In this document: piece by piece, positions 34,111-59,291 of the stretch
Numbering within the stretch: the stretch's first letter is position 1
How the letters are laid out: every line of letters begins with the position of its first letter
NCBI GenBank assembly: GCA_913047695.1
Contig: CAJWUI010000002.1
Span: forward strand, 124,001-188,000
Direction: 5' to 3'
From: an uncultured Bacteroidota bacterium
GTDB lineage: Bacteria > Bacteroidota > Bacteroidia > Flavobacteriales > Flavobacteriaceae
Length of the DNA stretch: 64,000 nt
Made by a program: the position numbers and the translations under genes
The notes under the pieces: generated by a model
Seen by the model: only the letters and a program-made list of their open reading frames with translations
What the model was told of the DNA's origin: nothing
Database searches by the model: none

Positions 34111-34728
34111 ATGACAGACAAAGCTTTAAATAAAAGATTACGAAGTAAAGTAGCAATGCATATGCTATTTGGACTTGGAGGTGCAGTTGTAATTATAGGT
34201 GCACTATTTAAAATTTTACACCTTGAAATAGGACCAATAACAGGTGGACTCGTTTTAGGTTTAGGACTTGGCACAGAAGCACTTATTTTTACTGTAGCTG
34301 CATTAAATACTGGTGAAATAAAAGAGGAGCATCAGGATTTTGTAAAAAAATTAAAAGGCTCTGGTTCAGCATCTCCGTCAAGCACAGGAGATGGTGGTCT
34401 TTCCTCTAAAATTGATGCTTTAATGGCAGAAGCTAAACTTGATGTTAACTTAATGAACTCATTAGCAAAAAGTATTAAAAACCTTGAATCTTCAGCAAAG
34501 GCACTAAGTCCTGCTTCTGAAGCAGCTTCGGCCTCTCAAAACTATTCACAGGAGCTTGCTAAAGCAGCATCACAACTTGAGCAGCTCAATGCAAATTATC
34601 AAAAGCAAATTTCCGTCAATCAAAATGCTGATCAGCTCAAGAAACAAATGGAAAGTTTATCTGCCAACCTTGCTGCTCTCAATAGCGTATATGGTGGAAT
34701 GCTAAATGCGATGTCAAAAAATAACTAA
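34111..34728 (+). CDS. gldL: Type IX secretion motor protein GldL
   Basis: This 205-residue inner-membrane protein has two helices (about 17-36 and 41-63) followed by a cytoplasmic, Ala/Ser/Gln-rich coiled region (about 80-200). K34, H37 and E56 sit in the helices where the Flavobacterium johnsoniae protein has the Lys/His/Glu set needed for proton flow. GldL pentamers with a GldM dimer form the proton-driven motor of T9SS and gliding. The gldM start follows after 2 bases. Confidence 0.96.
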   Translation: MTDKALNKRLRSKVAMHMLFGLGGAVVIIGALFKILHLEIGPITGGLVLGLGLGTEALIFTVAALNTGEIKEEHQDFVKKLKGSGSASPSSTGDGGLSSKIDALMAEAKLDVNLMNSLAKSIKNLESSAKALSPASEAASASQNYSQELAKAASQLEQLNANYQKQISVNQNADQLKKQMESLSANLAALNSVYGGMLNAMSKNN

Positions 34729-34730
34729 AA

Positions 34731-36308
34731 ATGGCAGGTGCAAAAGAAACCCCTAGACAAAAATTAATTAGTTTAATGTACTTGGTATTTATTACCATGT
34801 TAGCATTAAATGTAAGTAAAGAGGTTCTAGACGGCTTTGGGCAAATGTTTGAAAAAATAGCGGATGCTAATGAAAGAGTCTTAGAAAGTAATAACCTTCT
34901 TTTGGAGAATATAATTGTCAATGCTGAAGAAAAAGGTGGAAAATGGATTGGTCACAAAAGAACAGCTGAACAAATTAAAAAGGAGTCTGATGCCTTCTAT
35001 AATGAAATAGAAGGTTTAAAAAAACGTATCACTGAAAAGCAAAGAGAAAAAGATCCAAATCTCAAAGAATTTTCTCAAATGGATAAAGGTGAGACATTAG
35101 ATGTAATTTGGTTTAAAGAAGGATCAACAGACGAAAAATCTAAGTTTATCGAAATGATACAGGAGTACAAAATGCATGTTATACAAGTTTTTGGAAGCCA
35201 ATATCCCGAATCTATCGAAATGGTTGAGGCTCGATTTTTCACCGGTGACATGAACAACAATATAAAAAACAGAGACGATGTTGATGAACCCTGGTTAGAT
35301 GCAAATTTTAAAGGATTTCCTCTTATTTCTTCCTTAGCAAAATTAACTATGATGCAGAATGATATTAGGCAAACCGAACATGATGTCCTTACTACACTTA
35401 TGGGTAAAGAATTAAAAATGTCATCCAAAGTAAACCAATCTAATTACACTAGTCTATTGGTAACTGAAAAGGGGGCTTATTATCCTGGGGAGAAATTTGA
35501 TGGAAGTGTTATATTAGGGAGAAAAGGTGGTGCTCAAAACCCTAATGGAGTTGATTTGAAAATAGATGGACGAAAACTTACTGACAAAGACTATGAGTTG
35601 ATACCTGGTGGAATTAAATTAAACGTAAACTCGGGTAACCCTGGAGATCACACCATCGAGGGCGACCTAATATTTCTTAATGATGGTGAAGAATCAAAAA
35701 TTAAAGTAAGTCAAATATATACTGTTATTTCTAAACCAAATTCTGCTGTTATATCTGCGGACAAGATGAATGTAGTCTACAGGGGAGTACAAAATCCAAT
35801 TACCATATCAATTCCTGGAGTAATAGATAGCAAAGTACGAGCTTCTGCACCTGGATTAAAAAGAGTAAGGGGTAGTAAATATAATTTATTCCCTGGTAAA
35901 GGAAGAGAAGTAAAAATAAATGTTTCAGGTACACTTCCAGATGGTAATAGAGTTTCTTCTGTATCTACATTTAGAATTAAAGACATTCCTAAACCTGCGG
36001 GTTATTTTAGAGGACAATCAGGCTCTTTTACAATACCTAAGTCTAGTCTAGAAAGAGGTACTGTTGAAGCAAGACTTGAAGATTTTGACTTTGATTTGCC
36101 TTTACAAACCAAATCATTTAGATTCAGGGCTCCTGGACAACCAAGTGTAGTAGTCAATGGTAACAGACTAGATTCAAAGGCAAGGCAAATGCTAAGTAGA
36201 ATTAAAAATGGACAAACCGTAATTATTTCTGATATAGATGTAATAATTCCTACAAATCCGAGTTATAAATTAAAACAAACATCTCCAATATCTATTACAA
36301 TTAACTAA
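34731..36308 (+). CDS. gldM: Type IX secretion / gliding motor shaft GldM
   Basis: This 525-residue protein has a short cytoplasmic N-terminus with the conserved R9 (KETPRQKLI), one membrane helix (about 13-32), then a long periplasmic part with a helical bundle (about 35-225) and beta-rich domains to the end. This matches the GldM shaft that spans the periplasm and transmits GldL rotation to the GldK/GldN ring. Position (2 bases after gldL, 14 before gldN) and length (~515-525 usual) agree. Confidence 0.96.
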   Translation: MAGAKETPRQKLISLMYLVFITMLALNVSKEVLDGFGQMFEKIADANERVLESNNLLLENIIVNAEEKGGKWIGHKRTAEQIKKESDAFYNEIEGLKKRITEKQREKDPNLKEFSQMDKGETLDVIWFKEGSTDEKSKFIEMIQEYKMHVIQVFGSQYPESIEMVEARFFTGDMNNNIKNRDDVDEPWLDANFKGFPLISSLAKLTMMQNDIRQTEHDVLTTLMGKELKMSSKVNQSNYTSLLVTEKGAYYPGEKFDGSVILGRKGGAQNPNGVDLKIDGRKLTDKDYELIPGGIKLNVNSGNPGDHTIEGDLIFLNDGEESKIKVSQIYTVISKPNSAVISADKMNVVYRGVQNPITISIPGVIDSKVRASAPGLKRVRGSKYNLFPGKGREVKINVSGTLPDGNRVSSVSTFRIKDIPKPAGYFRGQSGSFTIPKSSLERGTVEARLEDFDFDLPLQTKSFRFRAPGQPSVVVNGNRLDSKARQMLSRIKNGQTVIISDIDVIIPTNPSYKLKQTSPISITIN

Positions 36309-48704: not shown

Positions 48705-51700
48705 ATGAGACTGACCATAAACTTATCATTACAGCTTTTTTTCTCATTATTTTTTATTGTTGCTCAAGAACAAGAGACCTCTAATATTAACGATAAAAAA
48801 CTTGGCAACCTTGAGATTAAAAATTATACAAATAAGTTTTTAGAAAGGCCTGAGTCGGTATGGTCAGTTCTACGTTCAAGCAAGTCAAAAAAAATATTTT
48901 ATGGAACCTATGGAGGAGTTCTTGAATATGACGGGATAAATGTAGAAGCAATTGAAATTGATGGTCCAATAGAAAATGAAATTAGAACATCATTCACGAG
49001 GACCTTATTGGAGGATCAAAACAATAACATTTATGCTGCAGGAGGAGGGTTTTTTGGAAAAATTATAGATAGTGATTTTGGTGGATCTGAATATGTTTCA
49101 TTGATGGGAAAAATTCCTGACACGATTAATCCATATATTCAAGTTTTTTGGGGAGGTGTTAACAAAGAAAATGACATTTATTTGTATACACGGGATTTGA
49201 TTTTTAAATATAATGGACAAGAGTTCGACAAAGTATGGAAGATTTCAGATAGAGAAGAAGGTGTTGATTCATATGGGTCAATCCAAACAATATTAAAAGT
49301 TGATGAAAGAATTTTTACAAGGGTTTGGGGGATAGGTCTTTTTGAACTGGTAAATGACAGCTTTCAATTTATAGAAAATTCCGAGCTTTTTTCATCAAAT
49401 AGGATTGAATCAATGGTTTCTCTAGATGACAAAAAAATTGCTGTGTTTAGCAGTAAACTTGGTGTTGCAATTTTTGATAGTCTCAATAATTTCAAACTAC
49501 TTAATAAAAAACAGGTAAATAAATGGTTAAAAGAGAAACTTATATACAATGTATCAGAAGTAAAAAAACTTTCTGATGGCAAAATACCCTTAATTTCCTT
49601 TGAGGGAGGAGTTTTAGTACTTAATAAAAATTTAGACGTGGTTGATTTGATCGATCAAAGTGATGGATTACTTTCCAATACTATTACCTCGATTTATGTA
49701 GATCAAAATGATGATATTTATTCAACCAGTCTTTTATCTGCCTCTAAAATTAAGTTAAGTAATTCTGTAACCAGCTTTACAGAAGCAAATGGGATAAAGG
49801 GTCTTGTTCAAAAAATCAAAAAAATTGACAACAAGATTTATTTTAGCACAACAGAGGATATTTTTCGTGTTGATGAAAGTACATCTTCACTAAATAATAA
49901 TAAAATTGTTGACCTTCAAATAAATGATATTCCAAAAGACTTTATATCATTCGGGGGAAATATACTGTCAGTAAATAATTTAAATTCCTTACTTATTCGA
50001 AAGCAAAATAAAAGTTTAGTATCTAATGATAGACTTTTAGAATCACCTGTAAAAAGCTTATTGGATGATAGCCTTCTAATTATGGCCCATCCTATTGATG
50101 GGATTATTTTCTTTAAGCTACTTAACGATAAAAGAATAATAAAAATAAATAGTAGTAGGATATTTAATAAACTAGGAGTTTTAGGTATCAAGGAAATTGC
50201 AAAGGGAGTTTTATTTGTTGAAACCATAAACAATGAAGGTTCTTTTATATGCAATTATGATAAAAAAGGAAATATAAATTCAAAAAGATTACTTACTCCA
50301 GATAATCAAAAGGTGTTTAACTCTGAGAATTTTCAAAATGATCAAATATTTAATTCGCAAATAGACCAAGAAGAATATTTCGTTCCTTTAGAACTAAATT
50401 TAATAAATACAGGTGCAGGATATTTCATTTTTGATCAAAATTTGGATTTATATAGTTTTAATGAAGATTTTTATTTAACTCCAACAGAACAAAATTTACT
50501 CTCCATCTTCGAAAAAAATCTAACCAACTTTGACCCGATAACAAGACTTGCCAACATATCTGGAAGGCAACAATTTACTTCTGTAAATCCCTTAACAAAA
50601 AATAACTGGTTTTTATCTAGCCAAGGTTTAATTGAAGTTAATTTTAAAGAAAATGGGCAGTATGATATTGTCGGTGAATATCCTTACGGTGTAATTGATA
50701 TAAATGAATTATCTGGGGCTATTTTTGCAGATAATATTGGTTCTGAAAATCTTTTATGGTTAGGCTCTAAAGACTCAAAACTAATCAGCTATCTCCCAAA
50801 TAAATATTTAAATGAGAAAAAAATTAATGTAAAACCAATAATTAATAATGCTGCTTTTAATGGACAAATTATTAATTTATTTCAAAGTGATTTTTCATAT
50901 AATAATTCAAGAAATATTAAAATTGAATTTAGTTTTCCTTCGCTTGAAAAAGTTGAGGAAAACCTTTTCAGATACAGACTTATTGGTTTAAATGAAACAT
51001 GGTCAGATTGGTCTACAACAACTGAAGGTATTTTTACTAACCTTTATGAGGGAGATTATATTTTCGAAGTACAAGCTCTGGATGCAAACTTTAATGAAAG
51101 TGAAATCGAAAGTTTCTTATTTTCTATTAGTCCACCTTGGTATAGATCATATTTAGCCTACTTTATTTATGTTCTATTTATAGCCGCATTAATATGGTTC
51201 TTTGGGAAATATCAAGCTAAGCGTTCATTAGCTAAAGCTGAAAATGAAAGAAGAGAAAAGGATCTTGAAGAAGCAAAACAAATTCAAGAAAGTATGCTCC
51301 CTAAATCATACCCACAAATTGATGGGTTAAGTATAACAGCTGGTCTTATTACTTCTACAGAAGTTGGAGGTGATTATTATGATTTTTTTGAAAGTACTGA
51401 TAAAAGTAATAGTATCCATGTTATTTGTGGAGATGCTACTGGTCACGGAACTGCTGCAGGAATGATGGTTTCAATAATTAAATCTGCGCTTAACGGGCTA
51501 CCAAATCTTCCAGTTAACGAAATACTCGAGAGGTTAAATAATATAGTTAAGAAAATCAACTTGGGTAGATTAAGGATGAGTTTAAATGTTGCGAAAATAG
51601 ACAAAAATGAAATCCAAATTAGTGCAGCTGCAATGCCACCAACTTATCTATTTAAGGCAAAATCTAACACCTGCGAAGAAATTATGATTGAAGGACTACC

Positions 51701-51974
51701 ATTAGGTGGCTTGAAAAACGAAAAATTTAAAATGCTTAAAAAGAATTTTCAAAAAGGTGATGTCTTAGTTATGCTTTCAGATGGATTACCTGAAGCTTCA
51801 AATGAAAAGCAGGAGATGTATGATTATGATAGAATAAAAGAATTAATATCTAAAAATCATAGAAAGGAGCCAAAAGAGATAAAAAAACAACTATTTGACA
51901 GCTTAAATCTTTGGATTAATGGCGGTTTACCAGATGATGACGTAACATTAGTTATTGTTAAAAAAGTGGCGTAA
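48705..51974 (+). CDS. Periplasmic beta-propeller sensor with cytoplasmic SpoIIE/PP2C phosphatase
   Basis: This 1089-residue signalling protein has a signal peptide (about 1-20), a long propeller-type sensor (about 40-740), a Y_Y_Y domain (about 745-815; FRYRLIGLNETWSDW), one membrane helix (about 822-842), a short coiled coil and a SpoIIE-type phosphatase (about 870-1089). All metal Asp motifs are present: GGDYYDF, CGDATGHG, MLSDGLPE and PDDDVT. It resembles the sensor half of hybrid two-component proteins, but its output dephosphorylates a STAS protein. A fitting STAS/kinase pair is encoded 4 kb downstream. It converges on the lipoprotein operon with 17 bases between stops. Confidence 0.93.
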   Translation: MRLTINLSLQLFFSLFFIVAQEQETSNINDKKLGNLEIKNYTNKFLERPESVWSVLRSSKSKKIFYGTYGGVLEYDGINVEAIEIDGPIENEIRTSFTRTLLEDQNNNIYAAGGGFFGKIIDSDFGGSEYVSLMGKIPDTINPYIQVFWGGVNKENDIYLYTRDLIFKYNGQEFDKVWKISDREEGVDSYGSIQTILKVDERIFTRVWGIGLFELVNDSFQFIENSELFSSNRIESMVSLDDKKIAVFSSKLGVAIFDSLNNFKLLNKKQVNKWLKEKLIYNVSEVKKLSDGKIPLISFEGGVLVLNKNLDVVDLIDQSDGLLSNTITSIYVDQNDDIYSTSLLSASKIKLSNSVTSFTEANGIKGLVQKIKKIDNKIYFSTTEDIFRVDESTSSLNNNKIVDLQINDIPKDFISFGGNILSVNNLNSLLIRKQNKSLVSNDRLLESPVKSLLDDSLLIMAHPIDGIIFFKLLNDKRIIKINSSRIFNKLGVLGIKEIAKGVLFVETINNEGSFICNYDKKGNINSKRLLTPDNQKVFNSENFQNDQIFNSQIDQEEYFVPLELNLINTGAGYFIFDQNLDLYSFNEDFYLTPTEQNLLSIFEKNLTNFDPITRLANISGRQQFTSVNPLTKNNWFLSSQGLIEVNFKENGQYDIVGEYPYGVIDINELSGAIFADNIGSENLLWLGSKDSKLISYLPNKYLNEKKINVKPIINNAAFNGQIINLFQSDFSYNNSRNIKIEFSFPSLEKVEENLFRYRLIGLNETWSDWSTTTEGIFTNLYEGDYIFEVQALDANFNESEIESFLFSISPPWYRSYLAYFIYVLFIAALIWFFGKYQAKRSLAKAENERREKDLEEAKQIQESMLPKSYPQIDGLSITAGLITSTEVGGDYYDFFESTDKSNSIHVICGDATGHGTAAGMMVSIIKSALNGLPNLPVNEILERLNNIVKKINLGRLRMSLNVAKIDKNEIQISAAAMPPTYLFKAKSNTCEEIMIEGLPLGGLKNEKFKMLKKNFQKGDVLVMLSDGLPEASNEKQEMYDYDRIKELISKNHRKEPKEIKKQLFDSLNLWINGGLPDDDVTLVIVKKVA

Positions 51975-51991: not shown

Positions 51992-52354
51992 TTAGTTTGT
52001 AGAATAGGCTGAAAATACCCTGTTATTTGTAGATTTTTTAAAGTTTACTTTCCTAACTTTTTTCTTCTTATCTGTATTTTTTTCTTTATTTGTAAAATTA
52101 GGGCTCTTTTTTTTTGAGGAACCGTATCCGCTGTATTTATAATTACTTTCTAAGGAAGATTTAAGATTTTCTGAGTTTGCAGTTGAGTTTTTGTAGTTAT
52201 TAATTCTCGCCTCTTTATTGAAAAGACCTTTACTTTTTTCAGTAATCTTTAAAAATGCATCTGCTCGATCAGGCTTTTTTTCCATACCATTACTACAATG
52301 TAAAAGCACCAGTGGAATTAAGAATACACCTAAAAAGGAAAACAATTTATTCAT
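51992..52354 (-). CDS. Small lipoprotein c of the triplicated lipoprotein operon
   Basis: This 120-residue lipoprotein has lipobox LLHC20. After it come a FLKITEKSKGLFNKEARINNY-type segment, YSGYGS, a Lys-rich middle, and the C-terminus VFSAYSTN. Its paralogues are the products at 53355-53720 and 54656-54994; all three end in the same YSTN. No known domain is recognised. It is the last gene of the six-gene operon and starts 6 bases after large lipoprotein C. The charge pattern suggests an unfolded linker that may bind an acidic partner or the wall; this is inference. Confidence 0.78.
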   Translation of the reverse strand: MNKLFSFLGVFLIPLVLLHCSNGMEKKPDRADAFLKITEKSKGLFNKEARINNYKNSTANSENLKSSLESNYKYSGYGSSKKKSPNFTNKEKNTDKKKKVRKVNFKKSTNNRVFSAYSTN

Positions 52355-52360
52355 ATAAAA

Positions 52361-53344
52361 CTACTTAATTCGGCCATACACAACTCCTCTATATACATTA
52401 CCTAAGCTGTCTAATTGTGTTTGTAAAAATAAATCATCGTTGTAAAAATCAAAATTTCTAGTTCCACTATCTGCATCGAAGGGAGATCCCTCCTCTCTAC
52501 GCTCTCTTTTTGGGAAATATTGCCCTCCAGAAAAAAATTCGCCGTACTCTTTGATACTATTTTCATCAACAAATTCATATTCGCCATATCCTCCGTGGCC
52601 AAACCATAAAGGATCATCTGGGTCAGACATTCCAGTATTATCTACTTGATAAATAAATCTACCATTTAGCCTAAAGTGTACATCAAGTTTTCCATCATTT
52701 GGAACACTAATTGTGTCAATAGGAATATTATTTACATATTGAATTTCGAACGTTCTTTTCCAAATGCCATCAATTTTTGATGAATTTGGGGTCACATCGG
52801 GTAATTTTTTCCATAATTCTATATAATTTTCCCCAAACTCATTTTGTAAATTCTCACCTTCTTGATTATCGTTAACGAAATCGTATGTTAGTAAATCATT
52901 ACTAACGGAAAATTTAAATGGAGTCGGTCTAGCCTCCTTTTTAACATCAATTTCAACTACACCATCGATGCCACCACCCCATAACCAACTAATAGCACCT
53001 CCAGTTGCATGAGTTATAGTTTCTGTAATTACATTATCATCAATTTTAAATTTTCCGTACATTCCACTTCCACTTTTCCAATCATTTGATGAGTCGTATA
53101 CATTATCAATCCAGGCTACATTTCCTTTATGAAAAACTTTTATTTGTCTGTATTCAGGATCAGTGTCTTTTATATAAACCGTGTCGACTGCCATTCCTTT
53201 AACGGTTTGGATAGTTCCAATTCTTTCCCAAAAACCGTTCAATTTATCTTCTACAGTTAAAATTTCTTCTTGGGGTTTCTTGACTTCTCCACAACCAATA
53301 ATTGTAAGTACTAGAGCAAAGATTAAAAAGAGATTAAATTTCAT
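52361..53344 (-). CDS. Large lipoprotein C of the triplicated operon
   Basis: This 327-residue lipoprotein has lipobox IIGC18. It contains two copies of a beta-rich unit: GFWERIGTIQTVKGMAVDT (near residue 37) and GIWKRTFEIQYVNNIPIDT (near residue 192), each followed by a G.YG element (GSGMYGKF; GHGGYGEYEF). The ending GVVYGRIK is shared with its paralogues at 53722-54648 and 55008-55952. A two-domain lipocalin-like barrel is my best structural guess. It starts 10 bases after small lipoprotein b. This copy has the longest inserts of the three. Confidence 0.8.
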   Translation of the reverse strand: MKFNLFLIFALVLTIIGCGEVKKPQEEILTVEDKLNGFWERIGTIQTVKGMAVDTVYIKDTDPEYRQIKVFHKGNVAWIDNVYDSSNDWKSGSGMYGKFKIDDNVITETITHATGGAISWLWGGGIDGVVEIDVKKEARPTPFKFSVSNDLLTYDFVNDNQEGENLQNEFGENYIELWKKLPDVTPNSSKIDGIWKRTFEIQYVNNIPIDTISVPNDGKLDVHFRLNGRFIYQVDNTGMSDPDDPLWFGHGGYGEYEFVDENSIKEYGEFFSGGQYFPKRERREEGSPFDADSGTRNFDFYNDDLFLQTQLDSLGNVYRGVVYGRIK

Positions 53345-53354
53345 AATACAGATT

Positions 53355-53720
53355 TTAGTTTGTTGAATATGTTGAATAAGTCTGAGGAGAATTATTTTGA
53401 TAAGAGTAATTTACTTTCTTAGTTTTAGTATTCTTTTTGGATTTTTTGTTGTTGGAACTATTATCTTTTTTGGATGGGGTTGATCCATAACCATTATACG
53501 AAACGTTTTTACTTAATGATTCTTTTTTGTTAAGGTTTCTTACAATTGAGTTTTTGAATTTATTTTTTCTATCCTCTTGAGTAAAAAGATTTTCATTTTT
53601 TTTATCGATTTTTGAGAATGCTTCTAATGCATCTTTGCCAGAAGAACTTTTATTTTCGCTGCTGCACGAAAAAATTCCCAAAACAAAAAAACCTATTAAA
53701 ACTAGATGTTTCCCAAACAT
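53355..53720 (-). CDS. Small lipoprotein b of the triplicated operon
   Basis: This 121-residue lipoprotein has lipobox IFSC19. It shows the shared blocks FSKIDKKNENLFTQEDRKNKF, YNGYGS, a Lys/Asn/Ser-rich middle and the C-terminus TYSTYSTN. The frame is open a further 89 codons upstream, but that part lies inside large lipoprotein B in another frame. The ATG at 53720, one base after the preceding stop, starts a proper lipoprotein signal. Function unknown. Confidence 0.78.
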   Translation of the reverse strand: MFGKHLVLIGFFVLGIFSCSSENKSSSGKDALEAFSKIDKKNENLFTQEDRKNKFKNSIVRNLNKKESLSKNVSYNGYGSTPSKKDNSSNNKKSKKNTKTKKVNYSYQNNSPQTYSTYSTN

Positions 53721-53721
53721 T

Positions 53722-54648
53722 TTATTTGACTCTTTTGTAAACAACACCTCTACCTGTTGCTTCGTTATTCTGATTATTTCCAGAAAAGGATTTATCAATT
53801 TGTAAAAATAAATCGTCATTATAAAACAAAATATCGTGAGTCGTTTTGTTTGATTTTGGTTCAGACTCAGCTGTAAATGATCCACTTCCCCATTCAGCAT
53901 ATTCGTAAAGCTTATTATTTTTTTCATCCAATTCAAAAGTTCCATATCCTCCAAAGCCACCATACTCTGCTTGGTCTGAATCTGCAAAACCAGTTTGATC
54001 TACTTGGTACATGTATCTTCCTCTGTACATTACTTTCATATCTAAAATTACGTCGCTGGGTATTGATGTCGTATCTACAGGTATTTCGTTAACATATGCA
54101 ATTTCATAGACTCTCTTCCAAACTCCGTCTATACGCGACTTTGGCTCTAAATCTGGAAGTTTTGCAAAGTATTCAGCAAATTCACTTTCAGGTCTATTTT
54201 TTTGTGAGTAAGTCTGATCCCCTAAACTTATACTCATATTCCATGTTTGAGATTCTACATTGTTTTCATCTTTATATTGTTTTAATCCAGCACCCATTAA
54301 ACCTGTCCCGTGAGACATCAGTTCAGTAAGAGAATCACGAGAGTAAATATTGAATTTTCCGTAACCACCTGAGCCACCTTTCCATGGTGTCATTGAGTCT
54401 TTCCAAAAGTTGTTAACCCACATAACTCTATCGTTTAAATAAACTTTTATCTGTTTGTTATTTGGGGTTTGTGAGTTCACAAATGCAAGAGTATCAACAG
54501 CAATTCCGTTCATCAATTGAATGGTACCGACTCTATTCCAAAAACCTAGAATATCTTCCTCATAGCTGTCTATATTTTTATTTGTTTGGTTGTTTCCACA
54601 TGATACTAAAAAAATTAGTATTGAAACAAAAAGTATTTTTTTTGACAT
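53722..54648 (-). CDS. Large lipoprotein B of the triplicated operon
   Basis: This 308-residue lipoprotein has lipobox LVSC17. Repeat 1 begins GFWNRVGTIQLMNGIAVDT (near 35) with GGSGGYGKF, and repeat 2 begins GVWKRVYEIAYVNEIPVDT (near 180) with GGFGGYGTFEL; the ending is GVVYKRVK. The chosen ATG at 54648 gives a standard lipoprotein signal; a start 13 codons upstream is unneeded. It lies 7 bases after small lipoprotein a and 1 base before small lipoprotein b, so tight coupling of the pair is likely. Confidence 0.8.
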   Translation of the reverse strand: MSKKILFVSILIFLVSCGNNQTNKNIDSYEEDILGFWNRVGTIQLMNGIAVDTLAFVNSQTPNNKQIKVYLNDRVMWVNNFWKDSMTPWKGGSGGYGKFNIYSRDSLTELMSHGTGLMGAGLKQYKDENNVESQTWNMSISLGDQTYSQKNRPESEFAEYFAKLPDLEPKSRIDGVWKRVYEIAYVNEIPVDTTSIPSDVILDMKVMYRGRYMYQVDQTGFADSDQAEYGGFGGYGTFELDEKNNKLYEYAEWGSGSFTAESEPKSNKTTHDILFYNDDLFLQIDKSFSGNNQNNEATGRGVVYKRVK

Positions 54649-54655
54649 AATATTT

Positions 54656-54994
54656 TTAATTGGTTGAGTATGCAGAAAAACCTGCATTAGAAAATTTTGG
54701 TTTTACAACTTTATTTTTCTTTATTTTCTTATCAGATTCTTTCTTTACTGAACTTTTTGCAGAACCGTATCCACTATAACCGGAGTTAGCAGTCAGAGAT
54801 GCTTTTATTGATTCGGATTTTTTGAGCGATTTGTTATAAGAATTGATTCTTTCTTCTTCAGTAAATAGTTTTTTATCTCTTTTGTCGATTTTGTCGAATA
54901 CATTTGACTTTGCTTTCCCCTCCTTGGCTTTTGCATCTGAGCAAGAATAGTAAACAGCGCAACAAATTGTTAATAAAATATAGAGCTTTTTCAT
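54656..54994 (-). CDS. Small lipoprotein a of the triplicated operon
   Basis: This 112-residue lipoprotein has lipobox YYSC18. The shared blocks are FDKIDKRDKKLFTEEERINSY, YSGYGS, a Lys-rich middle and GFSAYSTN at the C-terminus. The start is the ATG at 54994 or one two codons earlier at 55000; both give a lipoprotein signal. It follows large lipoprotein A by 13 bases. Function unknown; exposure in the periplasm or at the cell surface is implied only by the lipobox. Confidence 0.78.
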   Translation of the reverse strand: MKKLYILLTICCAVYYSCSDAKAKEGKAKSNVFDKIDKRDKKLFTEEERINSYNKSLKKSESIKASLTANSGYSGYGSAKSSVKKESDKKIKKNKVVKPKFSNAGFSAYSTN

Positions 54995-55007
54995 AGACAT
55001 CAATTTT

Positions 55008-55952
55008 TTATTGAACTCTCCTGTAAACAACACCTCTTCCTGCTTGAAGATTTTCTCTATCTAGAGTATCTTTTGTAATTTGTAGGTACATGTCATCATC
55101 ATAAAAAGAAACTGATGCATAATGGGCAGTTTCTGCATTCCTAGGGGGGAAGTTAGTTACACTACCTAATCCTGAATAAAATTCATTGTACTCAACCATA
55201 TTACCCTTACCGTCATAATCAATTTGCCCATAACCTAAAAAACCTCCGTGCTCAGGGTCATCAACATTTTTGATAAAATTTGTTTGATCAACTACAACCA
55301 TAAAATAGCCATCACGAATTATCTTTAAATCAAGTACAGCATCTGCAGGAACTGTGGTTGTGTCAATAGCAACACCATTTACATATGAAATTTCATAAGC
55401 TCTTTTCCACACCCCATCCATCTTTGATTTTTTAAGTGATGGTAATTTTTCATAATACTCTCCAAACACAATATTTTCTTCTGAGTTGGGAACCCTACCT
55501 CCTAATTGAGTGTATGTTTGGTCATTCAGGTAATAACCGAAAGGGAACTTAATTGAAGAAATGTTTAATGAGTCCTTATTGTATTTCAACCATGGACCAA
55601 ATCCACCACTTCCGTGGGACATGAACTCTGTTAAAGTATCTTTTGAAATTTTAAACTTACCGTAACCACCAGGTGAACCATACGGATCTGTCTTACCAAC
55701 TGCATTATTTACCCATAAGATGTTTCCCTCTGAATAAACCTTTATATTTCTAAAGCCTTCCTCTTCGCCTGTATCATCAATACCGTAAAATAAGGTATCA
55801 ACTGGAGTGCCATTGACAAATTGAATTGTTCCTTTTCTTTCCCAAAAGCCTTCAATCGGAAGTTTGGTTTCGGATGTATTTTCTTTTGGAGCCTCACCAC
55901 AAGAAACCAATAGAAGAATCAATACAATTGTAAAATTTCTTATATAATGCAT
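55008..55952 (-). CDS. Large lipoprotein A of the triplicated operon
   Basis: This 314-residue lipoprotein has lipobox LVSC18. Two repeats start at GFWERKGTIQFVNGTPVDT (near 35) and GVWKRAYEISYVNGVAIDT (near 179); each contains a GGYGKF/GGFLGYG element, and the protein ends GVVYRRVQ. It is the first gene of the operon A-a-B-b-C-c. The 92-base gap 55953-56044 to the divergent kinase gene must hold both promoters; I see no exact TAnnTTTG in it. The repeats suggest two lipocalin-like barrels arising by internal duplication; no ligand is evident. Confidence 0.8.
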   Translation of the reverse strand: MHYIRNFTIVLILLLVSCGEAPKENTSETKLPIEGFWERKGTIQFVNGTPVDTLFYGIDDTGEEEGFRNIKVYSEGNILWVNNAVGKTDPYGSPGGYGKFKISKDTLTEFMSHGSGGFGPWLKYNKDSLNISSIKFPFGYYLNDQTYTQLGGRVPNSEENIVFGEYYEKLPSLKKSKMDGVWKRAYEISYVNGVAIDTTTVPADAVLDLKIIRDGYFMVVVDQTNFIKNVDDPEHGGFLGYGQIDYDGKGNMVEYNEFYSGLGSVTNFPPRNAETAHYASVSFYDDDMYLQITKDTLDRENLQAGRGVVYRRVQ

Positions 55953-56044
55953 ATTGAAAAATTATTATTGATTTATGATTAATTTTATATAAATATAAAT
56001 TTTATCTAAATTAGATCCAAGTATTCATAAACCAATTTTAGATA

Positions 56045-56467
56045 ATGAAGAAAAACCCTACAGTCGAACTAAAACTACCTATTTTAAAGGATATGGAGCT
56101 TGTTGCAACACATACCTCTGATGTTGTAGCTAAACACATGAATTTATCTGAGGAAAAATCTGCTGAAATTTCAATGGCACTCATCGAAGCATGTATAAAT
56201 GCCTTCGAGCACTCGGAGACAAAAGAGGACATCTATATTCATTATATTATAAGTGATGAAAAGCTTACTATAAAAGTAATCGACAAGGGGGTTGGATTCG
56301 ATGCTTCATCAATAGAATTACCCAATATTGATCAGAAAATTACTGATGAAAGAAAAAGAGGTTGGGGCCTTATGCTAATCAAAGAACTAATGGATAAAGT
56401 TGATTATGAGTCTGATAATACGGGAACAACATTAACTATGACAAAAAATAAAGAAACCGATGAGTAG
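56045..56467 (+). CDS. RsbW/SpoIIAB-like anti-sigma factor kinase
   Basis: This 140-residue protein is a stand-alone GHKL ATPase: N box in EACINAFEHSE (about 48-58), G1 box DKGVGFD (about 79-85) and G2 region KRGWGLMLIKELMD (about 104-117). Proteins of this size act as anti-sigma kinases that phosphorylate a STAS protein on Ser. Its stop overlaps the STAS gene by 8 bases, as in rsbV-rsbW or spoIIAA-spoIIAB pairs. No sigma factor gene is in the window, so its second target is unknown. Confidence 0.9.
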   Translation: MKKNPTVELKLPILKDMELVATHTSDVVAKHMNLSEEKSAEISMALIEACINAFEHSETKEDIYIHYIISDEKLTIKVIDKGVGFDASSIELPNIDQKITDERKRGWGLMLIKELMDKVDYESDNTGTTLTMTKNKETDE

Positions 56468-56801
56468 TATAACAAACAAGAGCATAAGAGACGGGATTGT
56501 AATTATTTCAACGGAAGGTTATTTTAATAAAGATCTTGGTGAGGCCTTAAAAGCAATTGCTGATGAAGAAATTAAAAATGGGCATAAAAGCTTTCTAATT
56601 AATCTTGAAAACTCAAAAATAGTGAACAGTATCGGAGCTTCTATTTTAATTGAGATAATCGAAGATTTACAATCAATGGATGGCTCTCTAAACTTCTGTA
56701 ATTTGGCTCCAATTATTGCTAAGACTTTTAAAATCATGGGATTAACAAAGTATTGTGAAACTTTCGAAAATGAAGATGCAGCCATAGCTAAATTGGCATA
56801 A
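56460..56801 (+). CDS. STAS-domain anti-sigma factor antagonist (RsbV-like)
   Basis: This 113-residue single STAS domain has NLENSKIVNS57IGASIL at the phosphorylation site. Ser57 aligns with the Ser phosphorylated in RsbV and SpoIIAA; the usual Asp before it is Asn. The unphosphorylated form should bind the kinase encoded just upstream. The SpoIIE-type phosphatase at 48705-51974 is the likely phosphatase. It is directly followed by the cyclase gene, with no base between stop and start. Confidence 0.9.
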   Translation: MSSITNKSIRDGIVIISTEGYFNKDLGEALKAIADEEIKNGHKSFLINLENSKIVNSIGASILIEIIEDLQSMDGSLNFCNLAPIIAKTFKIMGLTKYCETFENEDAAIAKLA

Positions 56802-58757
56802 ATGCAACTTGATCTTTCGTCTTTCTCAAAACTTTATGATAAAGAGAAACTTCCAAATAAAAAAATAGATTTTATTGTTAGTTGGCTTGAAAAAAAAGGA
56901 TTTCAAGTAAAGTTTTTCGTAGATAAAAAAAACCTTTTTTCAAAATCAAAAAAATCGGCCTTTGTTAAGGTGGAAAGCTTAGACTTCTCAAGTCTATTTT
57001 CAAGTAAAAATCTGCTTCCCTATTCTAAAATTTCTAAATATTTTCAGATTAATTTATTCGATAGTAATAATATTTCACCAAACAACATTGAGGGCTTAGT
57101 TGCTGGATTAAAGGTAAAATCCTCTTACGTTGGAGCGTTTTATCTATGGAATCCAAAAATTGATAGTCAGGATTTGATTACAACAATTGATTATTTTAAG
57201 CATTTGGTTCAATCAAATTTTAGAGAGTTGCTTCTAAGTAAAAAGTTAAGAAAAAACACTTCAGATTTAAGAGATAAAAAATTAGAAATAGAATCATTTA
57301 TTGATATATCAGAGTTATTAAGTGGAACTAGTGAATCAGAAATTTTATTTCAAAAACTTTTAGAATATTTAGTATTTACTATGAATGCATCGAAAGGAGT
57401 AATTCTTTCAAAAGAACCAAATTCAGGAATATATGAGTTAAAAGCAACATTAGGGATTGAAGATGATCTTGATAAAAAAATCTTTAGAGAGAATAAGGGG
57501 GTTTTGTCTTTACTAAAGAAAGAAAAAAAATCGTTGCTGCTGAATTTTTCAGAGGATTTACCATTACTCTCATTTTCTAATAAAAATTCTGTGGTTGGTC
57601 CTTTCTTAAATGGTAAAAATCTAAATGGTTGTATAATATTATATGACAAGGAAAGTAGAAAAGGTTTTGTTGATTTTGATCAATACGACCTTAGGTTTTT
57701 CAATTCCATTGTCAAAAAAATCTCTTTGTCTTACAACAATTTAATCCTTTTAGACAATGTCAAAAAATCCAAAAAACTAATTGATAACATAATGTCTTCC
57801 ATTTCAACTGGGATAGTTAAAATTAATCTAATGGGTGAAATTGAGTATATCAATGATTCAGCAATAGAAATTTTTCAGCTCGATAAATCAATATTATTAG
57901 ATAATCATTACGCTATTGTTTTTGAGAGTAACCCAGATCTTACAGAATTAATTGAATTTGCAGAAAGTAGAAATCATATCCTTTATGAGGAAAATTTAAG
58001 AGTAAAAAAACAAGACAGTAACGAAACTAATATCAACCTAACCATTTCCCCTGTTTTTGACGATGGTGTTAACTCCGGTTCAGTTATTTCTTTTGAAGAT
58101 TTATCTGATATAAATAAAGTGAAATCAACCTTTAAAAAATACGTATCAGAAAATATAGTAGATGAATTGTTATTGAATGAACATTCTTTAGAGCTGGGTG
58201 GAGTAGAACAGGAGGTTTGTGTATTATTTTCAGATATTAGAGGCTTTACTTCAATGTCAGAACGTATGGAGCCTTCGAAAGTGGTTACACTTTTGAACAG
58301 TTTCTTTGATAAGATGATAGATGTCGTCTTTAAATATGACGGTACTCTTGACAAAATAATAGGTGACGAACTAATGGTTTTGTATGGTGCTCCGTTAAAA
58401 AAAACAGATGATATTTTAAATGCTGTAAAAACAGCAAAAGAAATGTTTACTACCCTTGATAAATTCAATATAAAAATGTTAGAAGAAGGATATCCTAAAT
58501 TGAATATTGGAATTGGAATTAATTATGGTAAAGTTATATGTGGTAATATTGGATCTGAGCAACAGATGAACTACACAGTGATTGGAGATACTGTAAATTT
58601 GGCTTCAAGATTGTGTTCGGCAGCAAAACCTGGAGAAATTATAATTTCTGATAGTGTATATAAAAATCTAGATAATACTATTGGCTTTTCGTTGAACGAA
58701 AAATTAAGTCTAAAAGGGAAGAAGCAACCTGTAAAAAGTTGGAAATTTACTTATTAA
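56802..58757 (+). CDS. Class III nucleotide cyclase with PAS and GAF-like domains
   Basis: This 651-residue protein has an N-terminal region (about 1-150) I cannot assign, a GAF-like part (about 165-320), a PAS domain (about 335-440) and a class III cyclase domain (about 470-651). Metal Asp residues are D478 (FSDIRGF) and D522 (IGDELM); the base-selecting pair is K518/T592 and the transition-state pair N599/R603. Lys/Thr at the selecting positions is typical of adenylate cyclases, so cAMP is the expected product. It starts immediately after the STAS stop and is clearly in that operon. Its stop touches the PycTM-like gene. Confidence 0.92.
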   Translation: MQLDLSSFSKLYDKEKLPNKKIDFIVSWLEKKGFQVKFFVDKKNLFSKSKKSAFVKVESLDFSSLFSSKNLLPYSKISKYFQINLFDSNNISPNNIEGLVAGLKVKSSYVGAFYLWNPKIDSQDLITTIDYFKHLVQSNFRELLLSKKLRKNTSDLRDKKLEIESFIDISELLSGTSESEILFQKLLEYLVFTMNASKGVILSKEPNSGIYELKATLGIEDDLDKKIFRENKGVLSLLKKEKKSLLLNFSEDLPLLSFSNKNSVVGPFLNGKNLNGCIILYDKESRKGFVDFDQYDLRFFNSIVKKISLSYNNLILLDNVKKSKKLIDNIMSSISTGIVKINLMGEIEYINDSAIEIFQLDKSILLDNHYAIVFESNPDLTELIEFAESRNHILYEENLRVKKQDSNETNINLTISPVFDDGVNSGSVISFEDLSDINKVKSTFKKYVSENIVDELLLNEHSLELGGVEQEVCVLFSDIRGFTSMSERMEPSKVVTLLNSFFDKMIDVVFKYDGTLDKIIGDELMVLYGAPLKKTDDILNAVKTAKEMFTTLDKFNIKMLEEGYPKLNIGIGINYGKVICGNIGSEQQMNYTVIGDTVNLASRLCSAAKPGEIIISDSVYKNLDNTIGFSLNEKLSLKGKKQPVKSWKFTY

Positions 58758-59291
58758 TTATATAGCATAAATGCTTATAAAAAACAGTGTTATAAAAATA
58801 AGTGATCTTAATAAATGCTTAAGTCCCTTATTTACATTTAGAAATTTAGTTGATGCTATATTTGCTGTGGCATAAACAGATTGGGTTAAGTGTTTTCTAT
58901 ACGTATTTTCATCATTTAGTACTTCCTCCAAAGAATCAAAAAAGTTTTCAAAATTTTTATATTTTGAAACATCTCCAAAAAATAGAGGAGATTTTTTAAC
59001 AGTAAAATCAAACCTCGGTAGAATACACATTACACATCTTCTCAAAGATGCAATTATAAAAAAAAAGGATACGCCAAGAAGTAGAACGTGGACAATACCA
59101 GAAAAACCGGTTGAAAAAGAATAAATATTTTCTTCATCTAAAATATCCAAAGTATAACCTAAACCAAAAATTAGACTATAAATTGATATTATTGCAGTAG
59201 CTTTAACCTCAGCAAATTGAATCTGACCATAGTTGTAATTGATCACATTCCAATAATCTTCAATATCTATATTTTTGAGTTTACTACCCAT
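58758..59291 (-). CDS. PycTM-like membrane protein (Pycsar effector family, DUF5706)
   Basis: This 177-residue protein has an amphipathic N-terminus with IQFAEVKATAIISIYSLIFG (about 24-43), a second helix (about 66-86), the SPLFFGDVSKY block (about 100-110), a charged helix, and a last helix (about 158-176). AEVKA, the LFFG block and the VYATANIASTK region match the DUF5706 effector family, which in Pycsar defence oligomerises on cyclic pyrimidine nucleotide and disrupts the membrane. The neighbouring cyclase looks ATP-specific and is convergent rather than in one operon, so a defence role is uncertain; a cyclic-nucleotide-gated membrane protein is a reasonable inference. Confidence 0.7.
   Translation of the reverse strand: MGSKLKNIDIEDYWNVINYNYGQIQFAEVKATAIISIYSLIFGLGYTLDILDEENIYSFSTGFSGIVHVLLLGVSFFFIIASLRRCVMCILPRFDFTVKKSPLFFGDVSKYKNFENFFDSLEEVLNDENTYRKHLTQSVYATANIASTKFLNVNKGLKHLLRSLIFITLFFISIYAI

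Follow-up and report, generated by a model that had tools for sequence, protein, structure and literature searches.

The stretch analyzed here, hereafter the window, comprises 64,000 nucleotides of contig CAJWUI010000002.1 (positions 124,001 to 188,000) from an uncultured bacterium of the Flavobacteriaceae (assembly GCA_913047695.1), and the subject of this study is an operon of six putative lipoprotein genes within it. The genes alternate between a large (L) and a small (S) type in the order L1-S1-L2-S2-L3-S3 on the minus strand (51992 to 55952), and they are separated by 13, 7, 1, 10, and 6 bases. The host genome, which is 1.96 Mb in 18 contigs and 89% complete, belongs to the same genus as the genome G010. 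One member of this genus is SCGC AAA795-G10, a single cell assigned to the NS5 marine group, which is described as common uncultured plankton (PMC6013644). The six genes are as follows.

55008..55952, minus strand: L1, tandem lipocalin-like lipoprotein, first gene of the operon, 314 residues (fold inferred from L2 and L3)
54656..54994, minus strand: S1, small basic lipoprotein, 112 residues, C-terminus FSAYSTN
53722..54648, minus strand: L2, tandem lipocalin-like lipoprotein, 308 residues (AlphaFold2 model)
53355..53720, minus strand: S2, small basic lipoprotein, 121 residues, C-terminus YSTYSTN
52361..53344, minus strand: L3, tandem lipocalin-like lipoprotein, 327 residues
51992..52354, minus strand: S3, small basic lipoprotein, 120 residues, C-terminus FSAYSTN

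The alternating layout and the gaps given in the original prediction, which was made from the DNA letters alone, match exactly on re-reading. The large genes are paralogues of one another, as are the small ones, which agrees with the same prediction: L2 and L3 are 46% and 38% identical to L1, and S2 and S3 are 37% and 44% identical to S1. The lipoboxes that had been assigned to all six genes are partly upheld; i.e., the cysteine at the lipobox position is invariant in 22 of 22 S proteins and in all 21 rows of the L alignment, but the residues that precede it are atypical in several S proteins (e.g., -LLHC in S3). L, S, or both are also present in 12 further genomes. The ratio of nonsynonymous to synonymous divergence (dN/dS) relative to the nearest genome is 0.06 to 0.18, which indicates that the L and S proteins are constrained by purifying selection. 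Given this ratio and the recurrence in 12 other genomes, the six-gene arrangement is far beyond chance.

The collection used for comparison contains 22 L and 22 S proteins from 13 genomes, namely, that of the window, G031, G010, G021, G028, G017, G001, G011, G015, MED769, AG-390-P11, G373, and G266; G015, in which the locus meets the contig end, contributes S only. An S gene directly follows 21 of the 22 L genes. In a sample of 38 genomes of the genus, S was found in nine, eight of which carry a full-length L (the ninth is G015, at its contig edge), and in a sample of 397 genomes of the family, full-length L and strong S matches share four genomes among the matches listed. Weak S matches in 49 of 53 genomes, all outside the L/S genomes, cover mostly the signal-peptide end and were left uncounted. 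The distances between L proteins correlate with those between their S neighbors (r = 0.837, 20 pairs), and the true pairing alone, 1 of 1,152 possible within-genome pairings (mean, 0.17), reaches this value. Both the L and the S tree contain a type 2 clade from the same six genomes and group W_3 with G031_3, whereas a type 1 group of seven is supported in the S tree (92/99) and only partly recovered in the L tree. The L tree also places MED769 and G011 with type 3 (99/99), but the S tree leaves the two without a clear position. AG-390-P11 carries one pair in inverted orientation that converges on the other (L>S> <S<L), and G373, from the same genus, has a single pair at this place. Taken together, the trees, the pairing result, and the inversion in AG-390-P11 indicate that two-gene units have been gained, lost, and turned around. 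The L/S pair is an evolving unit, as the original prediction had proposed from the layout.

The AlphaFold2 model of L2 (mean predicted local distance difference test [pLDDT], 86.2; predicted template modeling score [pTM], 0.85) takes the shape of two successive nine-stranded barrels, and a short helix precedes the first of these only. The best PDB matches of this model in Foldseek are Bacteroides lipocalin-like proteins (4gzv, E = 7.7e-4; 4qrl, template modeling [TM] score by target length = 0.66), and 4gzv is the sole match at an E-value of 0.001 or below. A model of L3 fused with S3 gave 13 such matches, with BFA1 in the first rank and TbpB and ToxS also among the matches; in these searches the E-values are modest, low-probability unrelated folds (sliding clamps) are intermixed, and each good match spans one barrel. 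A profile built from either L half detects its counterpart in all 22 proteins; the halves are therefore homologous, and L arose through the doubling of one barrel. A G-x-W motif near the first strand is characteristic of lipocalins, and in the alignment of 21 L proteins it is present at this position in 20 of 21 N-terminal and 20 of 21 C-terminal halves. At the level of the predicted fold, L appears to be lipocalin-like with two barrels per protein. Pfam gave nothing above the cut-off for the 21 L proteins (best E = 0.046, with an unrelated name), and NCBIfam gave no match for L1, L2, or L3. No cysteine other than that of the lipobox is found in L1 to L3, and Pfam scans detected no DNA-binding domain in L or S. 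All 22 L proteins are acidic, with isoelectric points (pI) of 4.6 to 5.7.

Single-barrel relatives of approximately 150 residues, homologous to one half of L, are common in the Flavobacteriaceae. A match of some kind to the L profile was found in 138 of the 397 family genomes, and a full-length match in four among the matches listed; in a class-level sample of 295 genomes, the window's own was the only one to match the profile at 1e-4. Homologues of the large protein without the small gene, which the original prediction had named as evidence against a paired unit, are the rule in the single-domain family, where S adjoins none of 39 loci, and not in the two-domain family. The single-barrel relatives obtained no family name above the cut-off (two scanned by Pfam and four by NCBIfam). 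They are acidic in 38 of 38 cases, and the acidity of L is thus a trait of the family. A thioredoxin reductase gene lies in the flank of 26 of the 39 single-barrel loci (L012 to L102).

The S proteins extend about 95 to 110 residues past the lipobox cysteine and have pI values of 9.3 to 10.2 in 22 of 22 cases, with the values of W_1 and G017_1 slightly off, as both were cut at a cysteine earlier than that of the lipobox. Most of the S sequence is predicted to be disordered, and two aromatic motifs are conserved, one of them at the extreme C-terminus. Most contain an F..I......LF....R patch, and all 22 contain an internal Y.[GS]YG and a C-terminal S.Y..N, with a variable linker of 27 to 43 residues; the S protein of G266 is the most distant and retains mainly the two aromatic motifs. 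Among 21 other short lipobox-like open reading frames, two have a pI above 9 and none above 9.3. Because the relatives of L are also acidic and short reading frames are rarely basic, only the basicity of S is unusual. A DNA pattern for the S tail has three matches in the window's own genome, all of them the S genes, and the idea that the tail is a general sorting signal was rejected on this ground; across the 38 genus genomes the pattern matches 27 times, 17 times at S genes and 10 times at scattered sites, compared with 8 matches for a reversed control. An EF-hand-like helix region in S was likewise rejected (lowest Pfam E-value, 0.11, for a single S protein out of 21). The Pfam matches of the 21 S proteins are weak and carry unrelated names (the lowest is Peptidase_S39, at 9.1e-4 in a single member), and those in NCBIfam are far below the cut-off (LIC13259 family, 0.0035, and others); both were set aside.

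The operon lies amid the genes of a partner-switching cassette, and here the domain searches confirm what had been suggested from the sequence. The flanking features are listed below.

48705..51974, plus strand: SpoIIE-A phosphatase, 1089 residues (Pfam SpoIIE, E = 2.6e-32; Y_Y_Y, E = 3e-10)
55953..56044, no strand: divergent intergenic region between L1 and the HATPase gene, 92 bases (10 loci aligned; mean column identity, 76%)
56045..56467, plus strand: HATPase, RsbW-like kinase (HATPase_c_2, E = 1.4e-25)
56460..56801, plus strand: STAS protein, RsbV-like (STAS, E = 1.4e-9)
56802..58757, plus strand: class III nucleotide cyclase with PAS (Guanylate_cyc, E = 1.1e-33; PAS_9, E = 4.1e-7; PADLOC PycC, to 8.1e-25)
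58758..59291, minus strand: PycTM-like membrane protein, 177 residues (PF18967 PycTM, E = 2.6e-9; PADLOC PycTM, 8.5e-21)

SpoIIE-A converges on S3 with 17 bases between them, and it also has a Reg_prop match below the cut-off (E = 0.01). In all 12 genomes for which both flanks are available, L/S lies between SpoIIE-A and the HATPase-STAS-cyclase genes; G015 has one flank. No sigma factor or other known partner-switch target was recognized by eye among the neighbors, where no dedicated search was made. The cyclase is, we presume from a residue rule, adenylate-cyclase-like. A protein of 256 to 260 residues with a similar start is found near the cassette at L042 (13845 to 14615) and at L114 (5349 to 6131).

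The distribution of the flanking genes separates the two sides of the cassette. SpoIIE-A is present in 9 of the 38 genus genomes (8 at full length), and the identical nine have S, while in the remaining 29 neither was found at the thresholds used; in G017, only the last 228 residues of SpoIIE-A are on the contig, which starts after the sensor. In the 11 other L/S genomes in which at least part of it is present, the SpoIIE-A sensor is 41 to 95% identical to that of the window (only in part for AG-390-P11). The HATPase gene is found in 12 of the 38 genomes, i.e., 8 with L/S and 4 without (G012, G023, G026, and G030). In the flanks read, the latter four also keep the STAS and cyclase genes, and their only SpoIIE paralogue is SpoIIE-B, of which the sensor is 15 to 19% and the phosphatase part 48 to 52% identical to that of the window's SpoIIE-A. 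SpoIIE-B converges on the cyclase gene in G023, G026, and G030 and is elsewhere on the contig in G012, and it also occurs beside SpoIIE-A in G028 and G017. A PycTM-like gene is likewise near the HATPase-STAS-cyclase genes in the L/S-lacking G012, G026, and G030. L/S therefore tracks SpoIIE-A, and the HATPase-STAS-cyclase genes persist without both, which indicates that L/S goes with the input protein and not with the switch. We had considered that the SpoIIE of the four L/S-lacking genomes might be the same gene with a swapped sensor. This was rejected because G028 and G017 carry both forms: the SpoIIE-A phosphatase part is 91 to 92% identical to that of the window, and that of SpoIIE-B (1062 residues) is 76 to 77% identical to that of G023. 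SpoIIE-A and SpoIIE-B are thus paralogues. One HATPase with two SpoIIE paralogues in G028 and G017 would amount to two inputs into one switch, one of the inputs being accompanied by L/S. SpoIIE-B (L069, 15229 to 18417, in G028; L071, 5920 to 9108, in G017) adjoins a gene for a 529-residue lipoprotein-like protein in both genomes, and in G028 it is approximately 10 kb from the L/S locus, where two phosphatases may feed one HATPase/STAS pair.

The surface-export signal of Bacteroidota lipoproteins is described as K-(D/E)2 or a similar sequence just after the cysteine (PMC5080379). Two adjacent acidic residues at positions +2 to +6, counted on the N-termini, are present in one of the 22 L proteins, in four of the 22 S proteins, and in none of the six of the window. 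Because the signal is mostly absent, most of the L and S proteins probably face the periplasm. Each S tracks its own L and yet keeps its tail (22 of 22), and the SpoIIE-A sensor is the sole other large domain that is presumably periplasmic, which points to a common receptor; the combination of private divergence and a common tail suggests that the S copies have one partner in common. We tentatively propose, as one possible account, that L/S is a two-gene periplasmic sensor set that feeds the partner-switching cassette via SpoIIE-A. Both proteins would be tethered to the outer membrane on its periplasmic side. Each L, with its two barrels, might recognize an envelope-derived or lipophilic cue and hold its own S, while S would act as a flexible basic tether whose two shared aromatic motifs bind a single partner common to all S copies; the periplasmic sensor of SpoIIE-A is the most likely candidate. 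A ligand or damage would then free or present S and switch the phosphatase, the STAS protein would be dephosphorylated, and this would act via the HATPase to change cyclase and gene output, with several L/S pairs serving as parallel inputs into one sensor. There is a precedent for such a route in NlpE: this lipoprotein of the outer membrane, which contains a lipocalin-like domain, is described as signaling to the inner-membrane kinase CpxA (PMC6538781). If the proposal is true, duplication of a lipoprotein pair made up of receptor and tether is a way for the bacterium to multiply the inputs into a single phosphatase sensor, and partner switching in Bacteroidota gains a concrete, testable envelope sensor.

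Several observations weigh against this sensor proposal or the tight pairing of L with S on which it builds. The available genomes are incomplete (54 to 98%) and the relatives are not independent, so the link between L/S and SpoIIE-A may reflect one old event or the simple linkage of one segment. The loss of the sensor-swap explanation also weakens an input role and strengthens an output role. Complementarity between an acidic L and a basic S was dropped as evidence of binding, since acidity is shared by all 38 single-domain relatives and the charge argument loses weight accordingly. In the model of the fused L3-S3 chain (genes in frame, with the stop read as a residue under NCBI table 6), L is folded and S is mostly below a pLDDT of 50, so that no docking is readable; this outcome speaks neither for nor against binding itself. 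The profile searches that the original prediction had suggested found the two-domain L nearly always with S (21 of 22), but the arrangement in G266 is L-L-S, and in G332, which belongs to another genus, a two-domain L of greater divergence stands without S. There, no S-like open reading frame lies in the 6.5 kb read, and G332 is absent from the genomes with an S match; the pI of its L, a single case, is 9.5. The L gene of G332 (L114, 3753 to 5258) is directly upstream of a PycTM-like gene, which is followed by two genes for 527-residue lipoprotein-like proteins and the start of a SpoIIE-type sensor.

The pairs differ in their divergence. Between the window and G031, the nearest genome, most of 57 genes have a synonymous divergence (dS) of 0.05 to 0.3, whereas that of L1 is 1.28, the highest (identity, 78.1%), and that of S1 is 1.27, the second highest, with the lowest identity of the 57 (75.9%). 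The values of L2 (0.79) and L3 (0.58) are also raised, and those of S2 (0.22) and S3 (0.21) are ordinary. Between G028 and G017, dS is 1.13 for L1 and 0.60 for S1, compared with 0.10 for L2 and 0.11 for S2; at 0.68, the HATPase gene exceeds S1. Rates were not taken from the comparison of the window with G010, which is near saturation (0.73 to 1.65; no value could be computed for S1). The divergence of pair 1 is in keeping with the suggestion in the original prediction that the copies may have drifted toward different partners or ligands. Along L2, dS jumps in the pattern expected of recombination, and recombination is likely behind the high dS values; the L tree nevertheless keeps W_1 and G031_1 as sisters, so rapid local change may be the cause instead. 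The SpoIIE-A gene (48705 to 51974) has a dS against G031 of 0.24 to 0.87 in codons 300 to 720 and of 0.03 to 0.19 in the first 300, as if this later part had been exchanged too. The window also encodes what we take to be GldK-, GldL-, GldM-, and GldN-like proteins, and against G031 the gldM-like gene (34731 to 36308) has a dS of 0.76 and the gldL-like gene (34111 to 34728) one of 0.41, at protein identities of 98 to 99%.

Such divergence could also be produced from outside. L and S might be variable surface-binding proteins for nutrient capture, or targets of phages or grazers, that are located beside the cassette by chance, and the highest dS and lowest identities of the 57 genes in L1 and S1, the gap between pair 1 (1.13 and 0.60) and pair 2 (0.10 to 0.11) in G028 and G017, and the low-TM Foldseek matches to the tandem-barrel binders TbpB and HphA are consistent with this; the HATPase gene, at 0.68 in the same comparison, is to be read alongside them. 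The explanation is nonetheless unlikely: the export signal is mostly absent, the proteins are under purifying selection (dN/dS, 0.06 to 0.18), and L/S occurs only with the SpoIIE-A paralogue. We consider it somewhat less doubtful that the partner switch has the operon as its target, i.e., that the six genes encode envelope-protective lipoproteins whose transcription starts in the divergent promoter region once the module becomes active, though this, too, is rather improbable. L1 is divergent from the HATPase gene across the conserved 92-base region, and regulators often adjoin their targets. The original prediction had named the operon as a candidate output, which is now disfavored: L/S is inherited with SpoIIE-A and is missing in the four genus genomes that keep the HATPase-STAS-cyclase genes with SpoIIE-B only. 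This co-loss argument is itself weak, since a target set could vanish together with one input. On the same pattern of inheritance, the input role fits somewhat better than the output role, and we favor it with modest confidence.

The cyclase and the PycTM-like protein match Pycsar models in a defense-system (PADLOC) scan that covered seven proteins, and the pairs are matched, number one to three per genome, and diverge locally. These features would suit a polymorphic recognition set in which matched L/S variants detect self or nonself, or phage attack, and trigger the cyclase and the PycTM-like protein, a scheme that we regard as very improbable. Inspection by eye of the available flanks of G266 revealed no PycTM-like gene. 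Moreover, the cyclase has K and I at the positions, placed by motif and not by structure, that are occupied by R142 and Q144 in EaPycC, which is described as CTP specific (PMC11224242). A bolder version would make L/S a hypervariable, self-matching lock and key: each pair would sample a different threat or neighbor, the S tails would report to one SpoIIE sensor, and the module would fire a cyclic-nucleotide signal and the PycTM-like effector, forming an immune or kin-recognition front end on partner switching. This version is more speculative still, and we give it very little credence.

A limited literature search, judged by titles and the beginnings of abstracts, found no work on the L/S pair and nothing on Pycsar together with partner switching or on Bacteroidetes partner switching with SpoIIE. 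L and S are without an existing family model, and a lipoprotein sensor that feeds a signaling protein is an already known principle. The Bacteroides lipocalin-like proteins 4qrl, 4gzv, 4i95, and 5byp are among the best per-barrel matches (TM score by target length, 0.55 to 0.68), but they are single barrels and have 10 to 17% identity to L in the alignments; we know of no S-like partner for them. The single-domain flavobacterial relatives are homologous to half of L and differ from it by one barrel and by the absence of S in 39 of 39 loci. L resembles NlpE of the Escherichia coli NlpE-CpxA system, a lipoprotein of the outer membrane whose fold includes a lipocalin-like domain and which is described as reporting envelope trouble to an inner-membrane signal protein (PMC6538781). 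In contrast to NlpE, L has two lipocalin-like barrels, the second homologous to the first (22 of 22), and neither an OB domain nor a CXXC motif; it is also matched by an S partner of its own and located beside a SpoIIE/STAS module instead of a histidine kinase pair. VtrA/VtrC and ToxR/ToxS resemble L/S as adjacent, fast-evolving gene pairs with a lipocalin-like sensor (PMC9214523), whereas one partner in those pairs is a transmembrane DNA-binding protein and L and S are both lipoproteins without a recognized DNA-binding domain. With Pycsar, the window shares a cyclase gene and a PycTM-like effector gene side by side. The SpoIIE, HATPase, and STAS genes of RsbU/RsbW/RsbV-type partner switching are all present in the window, and to these the module adds the PAS-cyclase, the PycTM-like protein, and the L/S lipoproteins.

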